Source: Kiritimatiellia bacterium
Lineage (GTDB): Bacteria > Verrucomicrobiota > Kiritimatiellia > RFP12 > UBA1067
Assembly (NCBI GenBank): GCA_017406465.1
Contig: JAFQYM010000027.1
Coordinates: 1 to 64,000, forward strand
Length of the DNA stretch: 64,000 bases
Direction of reading: 5' to 3'
Shown here in pieces: positions 3,551-27,370 of the stretch. The notes under the pieces were generated by a model. The model did not search any database. It saw nothing but the letters and a program-made list of their open reading frames with translations, and was not told where the DNA came from. Made by a program: the position numbers and the translations under genes. Each line of letters opens with the position of its first letter. Position 1 is the first letter of the stretch.

Positions 3551-6500
3551 TCACTCGATCTTCAGGCGGTAGAAGCGGGCGGGCGGAATCGGCGCGCCGG
3601 AGCCGTTGTCAGTCTGCTCGACAGGGAACGTCGGCGGATCGATAACTATGTACTTGTTCGGATCATCGGAGGTCATGTCCAACGCCTCAAGCGTGTCGGC
3701 GTAGTAGAGGCGCAATTCGCGGCGAATCGTTGTCTCAACTTCAGTGCCGTGGTTCAACAGCTCGCCTTCGATGACCGGCTTGCCGTTCTCGTCAAACGTG
3801 ATCGACGGTATCGTAAGCTCAATCTCCGGGTTGGAATCTGGCAGGATGTTAAACTCGTAGCATGTCACCAGCGCGTTGGTCGATCCGGTGAAGTTCGTGA
3901 TCGCGGTGTAGCCGGCCTCGGTCGCGCCGAGCTCGACGAGCCATGGCTCGATGCGGTCGTCATACTCCATCAAGTCGAGGACATCCGCCTGGGTGGTTGC
4001 GTCCTCCGGAAGCGGGATGGCGGGGGCGACGGAATTGGTCGCCCACTGGGACTCCAGCGTGACTTCGCCGCCGTCGGTGTCACCGAGGAACTCGAGCGCG
4101 ACGAACCAGCGGCCTGTCTTGTCGCAGGCATGGATTTCCTTGCCCTTGTCATTGAACTCGCCCGTCGGGAACCATGTCCCCGAATCGACGCGGGCGTTCT
4201 GGATGCGCTTGCCGTTGAAGTCGCGGAGCTCAACGTAGATCTCTCCGTTCTTCAGTTTCGTCTCGCCGATCCAGTTGGCGGGCTGCGTCAGCTTAATCGT
4301 CCCACCCACCGCAAGCTCGACGCCCGCGCCGATCTCGGCGAGCTTGACGAGCGCATTGCCGGCCTTCTCGCTCCAGATGGAGAGCCCTTCCAGCGAGACG
4401 GCCCGATCGAGGGTGTTCGTCAGGATAATGAACTCGTCAGCAGGATCGTTGACCGCCGCGTTGAGGATCTCCGCGATGCGGATGCCGTAGCGCTGGTCGT
4501 TCGGGACGTCCGACTCAAGCGTGACCTCTTCAAGCGCGGACCACTCGCCGCTCTTCAGCGTGCGGGCGCGGATCGTCGCGCCTTCGTCCGGGATGGCGAA
4601 GCCGTTGCCGTCATAGACATTCGCGCCGGCGTCCATCGGATCGCTTCCGTCGAGCGTGTAGTAGGTCGTGCCTTCCGCATCGGCGGAGAGATAGACTTTC
4701 GCGAGATACGGAACTTCTCCGCCCTCTTCGTAGATATCGCCATTGCCGTTCACGACACGCGGCGTGTCGAGGGACGGATACCACCCGCGGGCACGGTACT
4801 GCGAGAGCATGTAGGGCATGCGGGCCGCGAGGAAGCCGTTCGTGCAGGTCTTGCAGGCATTCAGCCACGTGCTGCGCGAGAATCCGCTGCCGGTTCCGTC
4901 TGGTCCCTTGCCCCAGCGCGCCGCCTCGCAGACGATCGCGTCGTCGATCTCGGCCATGCGCTTCGCGAAGCGCTCGATGTTCTTCTCGGTCGTCATCGCT
5001 CCTCCCGGACGCAGGAAGAACTTGTCGAACTGGTCGGCGCAGGCGCGACGGTATGCAGCGCTCTTTTCAAGTTCCCAGTGGAGCTTCACCGGGCTGAAGC
5101 CCTCGAGCGTGTTCCAGAACGCGTCGTACTTGTTGAAGCTGTCGACCGTCGTGGGGTCACCGGAGCCCCAGCCGGTCGGGTCGGCCGTCACGCCAACGTT
5201 GCTGCGCTTGCCGAAGGACATCTCGGCGTCGTGGCGCAGGTGGAAGAAGCCGTGAACGCTCGTCGGGCCGTCGGTGCGGTCGTAGAGGGCGTACATGTTG
5301 TTGAGGTGCTTGCTCTGCGGCGTCACCGGCCCGTCGCCGTCGACGACATAGTGCGTGATGAGCGCATAGGCCATCAGGTTCGTCGGGTTGAGGAGCTCCG
5401 GATAGGCCGTGTTGCGCGTACCGTCGGGATTGTTGCCGAGGACGCGCTGGTAGATGGCGTCCGCGGAGAGCCCGGCCTCGTTGACGACGACGGTATCCCA
5501 GAGGTTGCTCCAGGCGTCAAGCGTCCCTTCGTCGGCCTCGAGGACGTATTTCTCGGTTTCACCCGTCGTCTCATTTACGCGCGTCGTCGTCTTGATCACG
5601 TCCCAGTCGAGCGAGTCGCCGCCGGCGTAGGATTCGGCGAAGTGCTCGTCGCCGCGCTCCTGCGTCTGGTAGAGGCCCCAGTACTGGCCGTTGATGAAGA
5701 GGTTGTAGTAGCGGCTCCTGGTGTGGAACTGCCCCATGTCGCGCTGCGAGTCGCGCGAGAACACCTCGTGGATGAAGGTGTCCGCATTGTTGTTTTCGTT
5801 GGCCCACGAGAAGTTCTGGGAGCAGCGCAGGTCGATCTTGTCGTATTCGCCTGCTTCCTTGTCCGGCTCGCCCGGGAAGATATCGTGCTCGAGCGAGCTC
5901 ACGCCGTAGGAGCTGCGGAAGAAGAGGCGGAGCGCGTGCTTCGGGCGGCTGGCCGTTCGGCTGTTCGAGCCGCGGATGCGCAGGCCCGCCGGCATGGAGA
6001 AGCCATCCTTCGGGTCGAGCGGATTGATCTGTTCGAGCATCGTCTGACGCTCCCACTCCTCGCCGCGCCCGGCCGGGTTGACGTAGATGCCCGTCGAGCT
6101 GTTGAAGAGGTTCTCCGGGTCGATGACGAGCGAGATCGTCGCGATCGAGTTCGTGAAGCCGCAAAGCAAGCGGTCGCGGTCGGAGCCGTTCACGACGTCT
6201 TGCCGCATGCCGTACAGCATCTTGTGGCTCTTGACCGTGCCGCTGTCCGGGAAGCCAACGGCCGACTCTGGGGCGGTCGTTGACTGCGCCTGCGCGAGAA
6301 CGTCGTCAAGGAAGATGTAGGTCGCGGACGTGTCGAACTGGAGGACAGAGGTCGGGTCCGGCACAGCGGCGCGGACGACCGTAGTCTTCGAGATCGGGAT
6401 CGCGTTCGTGTAGAGGATTGAGTCCGTCGTGGGCGAAGTGCCGTCGAGCGTGTAGTAGATGGCCGCTTCGGGATCGGCGCAGGAGAGCGTCAGCTCGAAA

Positions 6501-25741: not shown

Positions 25742-26270
25742 GGCAGTGCTTCGCGTTGGATGTGGGTGTACTGTGGCTTGCTCTGTGCTTGGTTGCCTTC
25801 CAGTGTGCGGTCACGGTCGAAGATTGCTCCGGTGAGCTGCGCGAAGGCTCGCCTAACCCGTCGGGTCTTGTCATCGCGACGGCTCTCACACATCAGACAA
25901 TGAGCCGAGTTTAGCCTGCCATGCCTCGGCGTCTATCACTGGTTGCGTACGCAAGCGCCTCTTACGCCTGCGAGACAAGACCGCTCCTCTTACGCGACCT
26001 TCGCCTCCGCCCACCTACGCCATGGTGCCCTCGCTTCGCTCGGGAATGTCACTCCTCCCGCGCGCTGCATCCACCGTCCGCAGCGCGATACTTCGTCGGC
26101 GGAATACCGCCTTCTCGTCTCGCTTGCGTCCTGTGGCGCATCACGCGAACTGTCGTCGCGCCGTTCCCCTGCGCTTGCTCCTTACACATGCGCCGTTAGC
26201 CCGACCTTCCGCTATGGCGCGTTTTCCTTCGTAGCCTCAGCGCTCGCCGACTCATCGTCGTCTCGCTTAA
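25742..26270 (-). repeat. ~0.5-kb element of unknown type, copy 1
   Basis: This fills the 595-nt stretch between the zinc-ribbon gene and parE. Read on the minus strand it shares three blocks, in the same order and spacing, with 26861-27370 on the plus strand: block I at 26249-26199 (GGCGAGCGCTGAGGCTACGA ...), block II at 26132-26091 (GGCGG-TATT-CCGCC hairpin then GACGAAG), block III at 25819-25742 (CGACCGTGACCGCAC ... ACGCGAAGCA). Stops interrupt all long frames, so it is not an obvious gene. It could be a structured RNA, a decayed mobile element or a repeat family. It does not show RNase P RNA or tmRNA signatures. Confidence 0.6.
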
Positions 26271-26287
26271 CTACTTGTGACCGTGCA

Positions 26288-26626
26288 CTATCGGTAAATG
26301 CCGTCGGGGCCTTTCGTGTAGCCCATGCTCCTGATCGCTTTCTCGGGATCGCTAATCGTTCGGTTATTCACCCGCGCATAGACGATCAAACCAACCAACG
26401 CGAGGCCGAGAGCCAGAAAGAATACAAGAAGGATTCGCGACTCCAGACTCATGCGCCCCGAGCTGGCAAAATGCTCGGCCCAGAAATCCTCGGCCTTTTG
26501 TGCAGTATACCGCACGAAGAATTGCTTGCCGCAGCCCGTGCATGTCTTTGAACGCGACTCTCCGCCACGCATAAACAACATGAAAAGCTCATTCTCTTTT
26601 CCACAATATGGACATTTGAAAATCAT
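26288..26626 (-). CDS. Zinc-ribbon single-pass membrane protein, hypothetical
   Basis: 112 residues. The N-terminus has two Cys pairs (CPYC at 5-8 and CTGC at ~29-32), as in MJ0042/zinc-ribbon proteins, then a helix at ~63-84 (ILLVFFLALGLALVGLIVYAR) and a short tail. The start overlaps the stop of a possible 27-codon ORF by ATGA and no Shine-Dalgarno is present, so translation may be coupled. Copies of the ~0.5-kb element lie on both sides, pointing away from it. Function unknown; codon use looks AT-richer than the neighbours. Confidence 0.7.
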   Translation of the reverse strand: MIFKCPYCGKENELFMLFMRGGESRSKTCTGCGKQFFVRYTAQKAEDFWAEHFASSGRMSLESRILLVFFLALGLALVGLIVYARVNNRTISDPEKAIRSMGYTKGPDGIYR

Positions 26627-26706
26627 AACTCAATCAAATGGGGAAACACCCCTTTGGCGTTGCCCTTTTTATCGCCCATTTTGATGTTTTCTTTCACTTT
26701 CCTCAT
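26623..26706 (-). CDS. Possible 27-residue ORF coupled to the zinc-ribbon gene
   Basis: ATG at 26706, Lys-rich peptide starting MRKVKENIKMGDKK, and TGA overlapping the next ATG as ATGA. A TATAAT (26731-26726) lies ~20 nt upstream. There is no Shine-Dalgarno and the ORF is short enough to be chance; a leader peptide is a fair guess only. Confidence 0.35.
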   Translation of the reverse strand: MRKVKENIKMGDKKGNAKGVFPHLIEL

Positions 26707-26800
26707 TTTTAACGGCGTTGGGCATATTATAGCGAAACTTCCGCGCTGAAATCAAGCGCGGCGAAATGAGATTACGGTGCGGACGAAATTATTCGCGAAG
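26707..26800. other. AT-richer intergenic stretch
   Basis: It contains a TATAAT at 26731-26726 (minus strand) that may serve the small ORF and zinc-ribbon gene. Nothing else is recognisable. Confidence 0.4.
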
Positions 26801-26845
26801 CAGTTAGGGTCGATTAGGGTCATATAGCGTCGGATGGCGTCGCGG
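26801..26845. repeat. Iterated short repeat, TTAGGGTC type
   Basis: Four 10-nt units (cagTTAGGGT, cgaTTAGGGT, catATAGCGT, cggATGGCGT) run in register, just before copy 2 of the ~0.5-kb element. The same word is iterated inside kdsD at 49280-49402. Confidence 0.8.
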
Positions 26846-26860
26846 CACATTTGTCGTGGA

Positions 26861-27370
26861 TTAAGCTCGCTGACGGGACGGCGGCGAGCGCAGATGCTAC
26901 GAAGAAAAACGCGCCTTATGGAAGGTGAGGCAAGGGACGAGGGGTCGAGTGCCGAACTGAGCGACATGCAACGACGCGGTTCGTCGGATGCGCAGCGAGA
27001 CACGCCGCAAGGCGAGGAGGCGTATCCGCCGACGAAGCATTGCGGCGCGTATCGCCGCGAAGACGACGGGAGCGGCGGCGCATGGAGCGGGAGAGAGGCC
27101 AAGACCGCGAGCACCGCGCCGAACTCGACCAGAGGTGCCAAGCGCGGTCACGGTCGGGGCCGCAGCGGGGCGGAACCCGCGAAAATGAGACGAGTCGCGC
27201 AGGACTGCGACCCGAAGACATATATGTATATGTCGAGCGGTCGCAAGGACGCGCGAATCGGCCATTTCTCGCGGGCGAGCACCGTTGCCCCGACCGTGAC
27301 CGCACGTTGACAGGCAAACCGGCACAGATCAGCACACGCGCATCACCAGAATGACGCGAAGCAAAGTGCC
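26861..27370 (+). repeat. ~0.5-kb element of unknown type, copy 2
   Basis: It fills most of the 746-nt gap between the small ORF and the radical SAM gene. It carries the same ordered blocks as copy 1: 26882-26931, 27007-27037 and 27291-27370. The first block agrees at about 42 of 49 positions by eye, and the start of the third at roughly 36 of 45. A short perfect hairpin GACATATA/TGTATATGTC is at 27217-27234. ORFs inside are Arg-rich and show no family. The right end stops 2 nt before the stop of the convergent radical SAM gene. Confidence 0.6.

Follow-up and report, generated by a model that had tools for sequence, protein, structure and literature searches.

We describe a pair of folded elements that stand head to head in a 64,000-nucleotide stretch of DNA (the window) from a Kiritimatiellia bacterium (contig JAFQYM010000027.1 of assembly GCA_017406465.1), together with the family to which they belong. 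Our results suggest that each element is probably a discrete border of about 465 nt within a dispersed system of gene-cassette exchange. At the level of sequence, the comparisons establish a conserved fold, a fixed polarity (the 5' end towards variable cargo, the 3' end towards a conserved core gene), cassette modules and the swapping of cargo. By the same comparisons the family is real and structured, has a tie to gene exchange and falls outside those known families against which it was tested; it is the mechanism that we infer in part.

The element family

The left element occupies positions 25742-26270 on the minus strand, where its 3' end adjoins parE, and the right element occupies 26861-27370 on the plus strand, where its 3' end adjoins a radical-SAM-like gene. 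A first-pass annotation of the window had proposed that three blocks recur in the same order in two inverted copies, and a repeat search bears this out: the inverted pairs 26213-26270/26861-26918 (58 nt, 78% identity), 26079-26103/27025-27049 (25 nt, 84%) and 25779-25819/27291-27331 (41 nt, 80%) are collinear, and a global alignment spans both copies. The elements it bounded at 25742 and 27370 are real, but the unit defined by an nhmmer profile is slightly shorter, with conserved cores at 26270-25791 on the minus strand (E 4.5e-61) and 26861-27320 on the plus strand (E 6.5e-119).

The genome is metagenome-assembled (3.5 Mb, 102 contigs, 83% complete) and contains at least 45 matches to the left copy and at least 35 to the right, with E values down to 1e-202 and 1e-164, respectively; matches so numerous and at such low E values exclude chance. 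For the 3' domain, 20 matches are listed in this genome. One relative of the left element, at G000:C84:9094-9619, is 90% identical across 524 nt. Profile searching recovered about 50 near full-length copies with sharp ends and a very constant length of about 460 nt, as well as mini-copies in L076 and L077 that keep both ends and have lost the interior.

The covariance search that the first-pass annotation had suggested located further copies in the genome, the genus and the family. Our model, R1, describes the 3' domain (166 positions, 57 pairs) and gives the right element 192.8 bits at 27140-27305. It matches 27 of 114 genomes of the taxonomic family, with up to 20 matches per genome; 25 of these genomes, including that of the window, belong to the window's own genus and one each to two further genera. 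Across the phylum, three of 288 genomes match, all from the same genus, and none outside it. Searching 84,980 species genomes with an exact pattern built on the conserved 5' part gave 56 stretches, 54 of them from rumen metagenome-assembled genomes (MAGs) or one goat-gut MAG; besides several RUG isolates, their titles include 'uncultured Lentisphaerae bacterium RUG673' and 'Kiritimatiellae bacterium RGIG2521'. The matches in L046 (Enterovibrio) and L098 (Eisenbacteria) look like chance, the former having no profile match and the latter one at just E 0.001.

Rfam gave no match for the element apart from two sub-threshold miRNA matches, and blastn against 50,697 phage and 72,556 plasmid records was likewise without a match, which disfavours a phage or plasmid origin. 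A 38-kb IMG/VR contig listed as viral (L100) carries a head-to-head pair 4.3 kb apart and is possibly host DNA or a provirus; its cargo gene is also present in the rumen MAG RUG12190. Among titles and abstracts in the literature, no paper on integrons in this group or on structured RNAs at cassette borders was found. Judged by these searches, the elements constitute an undescribed family of strongly folded sequences, widespread in one Kiritimatiellae genus of gut bacteria.

Paired borders and exchanged cargo

The layout of a full locus is a core gene, an element running 3' to 5', one or more cassettes, an element running 5' to 3', and again a core gene. The cassettes share one direction, and each has a promoter module followed by a gene and, in many, a 3' site. 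The first-pass annotation overlooked this context, in which the copies form pairs that bound arrays of gene cassettes at conserved places in the chromosome. Of 26 pairs of adjacent copies, 24 alternate in orientation, the 5' ends facing in 18 (binomial p 1e-5); L162 contains one of the other two. The 5' domain, whose boundary is sharp against unrelated upstream sequences, occurs in two types, type I standing at the gene-3' end of the array (20 versus 3) and type II at the promoter end (14 versus 3; Fisher p 1.5e-5 for both types together). In the window the left element is of type I and the right of type II. These two end types explain why the window copies are so unlike each other, at about 70% identity in their shared parts, despite matches of 84-90% for each elsewhere; the earlier description of two diverged copies holds as to homology, but the pair represents two kinds of end.

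Cargo and flanks have come apart at these elements. About 40 cross-species element pairs share a 3'-side flank that is 86-99% identical (a few of the shared flanks span just 150-270 nt and could be other repeats) and that holds a core gene in the clear cases; in nearly all of these pairs, the cargo on the 5' side shows no homology. Downstream of parE, the element lies at the same offset in the window, RUG12088 (L053) and RUG673 (L063). Protein searches for parE in other species returned 1.5-kb flanks without element or conserved neighbour, so that this place is informative through L053 and L063 alone. The reverse case, cargo that is 98.9-99.8% identical with no homologous 3' flank found, is seen in L089/L094, L092/L100 and L064/L162, the last being weaker in that the L162 contig ends inside the element. 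Along swapped pairs, identity breaks inside the element, at differing points. The swaps of flank and cargo, together with these internal breaks, lead us to regard the elements as borders of cassettes that can be exchanged; the simplest reading is homologous recombination or gene conversion within the borders.

A few head-to-head pairs hold almost no cargo, as if they were empty docking places: L201:1955-3027, beside a phosphoglycerate-kinase-like gene in another species, and L053:2708-3054 and L063:2393-2927, both downstream of parE.

The window's array consists of a single gene (26288-26626, minus strand), which encodes a 112-residue protein with CxxC pairs and one hydrophobic segment. The zinc ribbon assigned to it by the first-pass annotation finds weak matches in Pfam (PF13240, E 0.003; PF21957, E 0.004), both below the cut-off. 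Before it lies the cassette 5' module (26615-26800, minus strand), with a promoter-like TTGATT-18-TATAAT (26755-26726) and a leader. This module had also escaped the first-pass annotation. It is repeated before other cassette genes, with at least 29 matches in the genome, several in tandem, and in its shared form comprises the promoter-like TATAAT and a leader reading MRKVKENIEMGDKKSNAKGVSPHL. A promoter scan of the window's cassette, by itself weak, found one against 0.7 expected. The shared 3' site, GGGACAGNCCCCGCGGAACCGTTGTAAAAGGCCTGTTTGCGCG, has at least 17 matches in the genome and often encodes the last residues of the gene (..DPAEPL). Tandem arrays occur on C93, C8, C15 and C32; the cassettes of one array nearly always have the same direction, and the C93 array bears several 3' sites on one strand. 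The cargo comprises membrane and lipoprotein-like proteins, a weakly LRR-like protein, HTH_3 (HigA-like) proteins, a zeta-toxin-like protein, a PIN protein and an AAA_14/DUF4143 ATPase.

Two observations concern the sequence just outside the 5' ends. Upstream of several elements, at 26780-26870 in the window, stand repeats of about 10 nt (GTCGATTAGG, GTCATATAGC and GTCGGATGGC) that resemble helically phased protein-binding sites. In L047 (about 3680-3807; L043 contains this stretch too), short palindromes of the type TACCCCTAGGGGTA stand in a row immediately before the 5' end of the element.

A conserved fold and a chimeric copy

For 41 copies, RNAalifold predicts 85 pairs, in 50 of which both partners have changed, with pairing kept, in one sequence or more, at a consensus energy of -112 compared with a mean of -13 for column shuffles. 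Two-sided compensatory changes occur in 31 of the 57 pairs of the 3' domain, where 97.6% of cells are paired and the covariation score is 0.440; when partners are slid by 1-3 columns, these values fall to 33-41% and at most 0.102. Seven helices can be defined by Watson-Crick covariation alone, energies not being used. In the right element, the stem that closes the 3' domain is a 17-nt perfect inverted repeat between 27144-27160 and 27287-27303 (plus strand), with two-sided change in 11 of its 17 pairs; among the copies this stem appears as TCACGGTCGGG/CCCGACCGTGA, CTTTGTTTTGG/CCGAAACAAAG and CTTGCTTCGCC/GGCGAAGCAAG. The arm that follows it appears as TGCGA/TCGCA, TCGCC/GGCGA, TCGAC/GTCGA or CGCGG/CCGCG, and conserved, RNA-like internal loops (AGGACT/AGGAC and CGA/CGAG) flank covarying stems. 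Diverged copies from other genomes on which R1 had not been trained, 32 in number and collected by R1 itself, which favours its own structure, gave 1577 Watson-Crick plus 71 G-T among 1813 cells (91% paired) and two-sided change in 46 of the 57 pairs. On this covariation, the copies share one conserved structure that is kept by compensatory change.

The strand read outward from the array gives the more stable fold, with an energy of -112.0 compared with -95.8 for the complement. G-T cells outnumber A-C cells by 71 to 29 in independent copies and by 70 to 42 in the helices defined without energies; in pairs common to the folds of both strands, the counts are 19 GT and 14 AC, which is almost no asymmetry. 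The wobbles lean weakly, and not decisively, to the sense strand, and on balance we incline slightly towards RNA over single-stranded DNA as the folded form. The proposal of a structured RNA or non-autonomous element family in the first-pass annotation was right as to kind, given the further copies and the compensatory changes, with RNA over folded DNA a leaning short of proof.

Against shuffled sequences, the right copy has a fold z of -8.94 and the left copy, a chimera, one of -2.58. This corrects the first-pass annotation, which listed the left copy as one of two diverged elements: in its 3' half, the core of a second dispersed repeat (25874-25973, minus strand, aligned with six other copies) stands in place of the usual 3' domain. 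This second repeat, which is probably also structured, is about 300 nt long with the ends GTGTTTCGGC...GCCGAAACAC, and its 100-nt core stands alone, without the element, at about ten places with 89-95% identity. Copies lie at L029:1587-1686, L030:1539-1637, L012:1266-1365, L022:1886-1983 and L024:3703-3802. Chimeras of this type are also present in L011, L013 and L019, indicating that modules are exchanged between element families too. One more copy of the repeat (G000:C22:116218-116317) immediately precedes a cassette 5' module (C22:116380).

Known systems, rival explanations and significance

Structure-dependent recombination is known for the attC sites of integrons, as described in PMC2727003. 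The arrays resemble integrons and CALIN elements in their tandem, same-direction, mostly unknown small genes and toxin/antitoxin-like genes, many with a shared 3' site (on C93, C8, C15 and C32), and in exchange between species. Unlike in integrons, the cassettes here have their own promoter module, and the arrays are dispersed and bounded by the 465-nt elements. Two tests speak against an integron. Boxes of the attC type (RYYYAAC/GTTRRRY) were found in 2 of 38 cassette 3' sites, 0 of 22 5' modules and 0 of 45 elements, with up to 2-3 in shuffled controls, and the best match to IntI (TIGR02249), an integrase that integrons have and CALIN elements lack, scored 80 bits in the genome, 83% complete, where the cut-off is 265; the 14 control genomes all match below the cut-off as well.

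GOLLD, ROOL, OLE and HEARO (Rfam; PMC12286853) resemble the element in being hundreds of nucleotides long, heavily folded and found in environmental and gut sequence; the elements differ in matching none of these Rfam families, even at E 1 to 10, and in being multi-copy, paired and placed at borders. IS110 bridge RNAs, as outlined in PMC11208160, are also structured RNAs tied to DNA recombination, each derived from an insertion sequence that encodes its recombinase, whereas no recombinase accompanies the elements here. The comparison with REP and REPIN sequences concerns the cassette 3' site, which has a palindromic GGGGACAG-CCCC core, and the same genome has Y1 genes with such palindromes; the 465-nt element lacks that layout and has no linked Y1 gene. 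REPs, moreover, are short. The overlap of Y1 genes and palindromes is a lead for the cassette 3' site, not for the 465-nt element. The Y1 matches themselves are four, few and weak (27-30 bits), and two of these loci, with RAYT-like transposase genes at L170:543-1621 and L171:1855-2118, have GGGGACAG-CCCC palindromes in or near them. The cassette array in L159 includes a gene that we take, from its sequence, to be IS110-like.

The remains of a decayed protein gene, the alternative for which the first-pass annotation had named codon-like change in one shared frame, might be suspected from some long open frames that single copies show in GC-rich sequence. The copies have no open frame in common, which excludes a protein origin, and substitutions track base pairing rather than codons; we give this idea practically no weight. 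A non-autonomous transposon that inserts anywhere, in the manner of a miniature inverted-repeat transposable element, would fit copies that are numerous, dispersed, modular and sometimes internally deleted. Orientation alternates, however, the same places beside the same core genes are occupied across species, the fold is kept by compensatory change across species, and terminal inverted repeats are lacking, with an average of 4.6 of 20 terminal bases matching, about the level of chance. In the one comparison of filled and unfilled sites, between L016 (the same stretch as L162) and its relative L064, the inserted unit is an element plus its gene, not a lone element, with GACCCCGCGGAAC at both junctions. 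We consider such a transposon improbable.

Two further explanations keep the fold and assign it another role. The elements could be a plain family of large non-coding RNA genes that has a function in the cell and whose copies offer homology for recombination only as a side effect; the RNA-like internal loops around covarying stems, the better folding of the sense strand, the z of the right copy and the pairs with little or no cargo (L201, L053) speak for this. Set against it are the copy number, which reaches 20 in a genome, the pairing of most copies, their tie to cassette borders and the absence of a conserved promoter or terminator adjoining the element; we hold it possible but rather doubtful. 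Similarly tentative is the notion that the fold is single-stranded DNA on which a site-specific or HUH-type (Y1) enzyme acts to move the cassettes, comparable to attC sites or REPINs. The sharp 5' boundary, the weak strand bias of the wobbles, the palindromes of the 3' site at two of the four Y1 loci and the mini-copies that retain both ends would suit such a substrate, but break points are scattered inside the elements instead of falling at one point, the termini lack an inverted repeat, and no enzyme gene is co-located, the Y1 matches being few and weak.

Folded borders of a cassette exchange system remain, in our judgement, the probable explanation. Several points weigh against it. The copies are related, so that the counts and p-values are not independent, and many contigs end inside copies, leaving neighbourhoods incompletely assembled. 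No recombinase is linked to the element system, no recognisable 3' site follows the gene of the window's own cassette, the strand asymmetry is weak, and homologous recombination alone does not explain the sharp 5' boundary.

Were the elements such borders, exchange would rely chiefly on homologous recombination or gene conversion between the repeated copies, and their inverted layout would avoid deletion of the cargo. The outward-read strand would form the fold, so that any transcript leaving the array would pass through the element in the sense direction; this fixed polarity suggests an insulating or processing RNA, and the outward fold might equally suit a folded single strand used in recombination. 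It is conceivable, if speculative, that the system captures and exchanges genes without an integrase, a large folded RNA or single strand at the array ends being recognised by the exchange machinery and the core-gene loci acting as docking sites.

If this is true, bacteria would have a second way, besides integrons, to keep and swap small genes of unknown function, one in which the borders and not an integrase are constant. The covariance model of the 3' domain (166 positions) is ready for the annotation of such loci. The system would also open two questions to direct tests: what large structured RNAs do in gene exchange, and how small secreted or membrane proteins and toxin-antitoxin-like genes spread among the Kiritimatiellae of the rumen.
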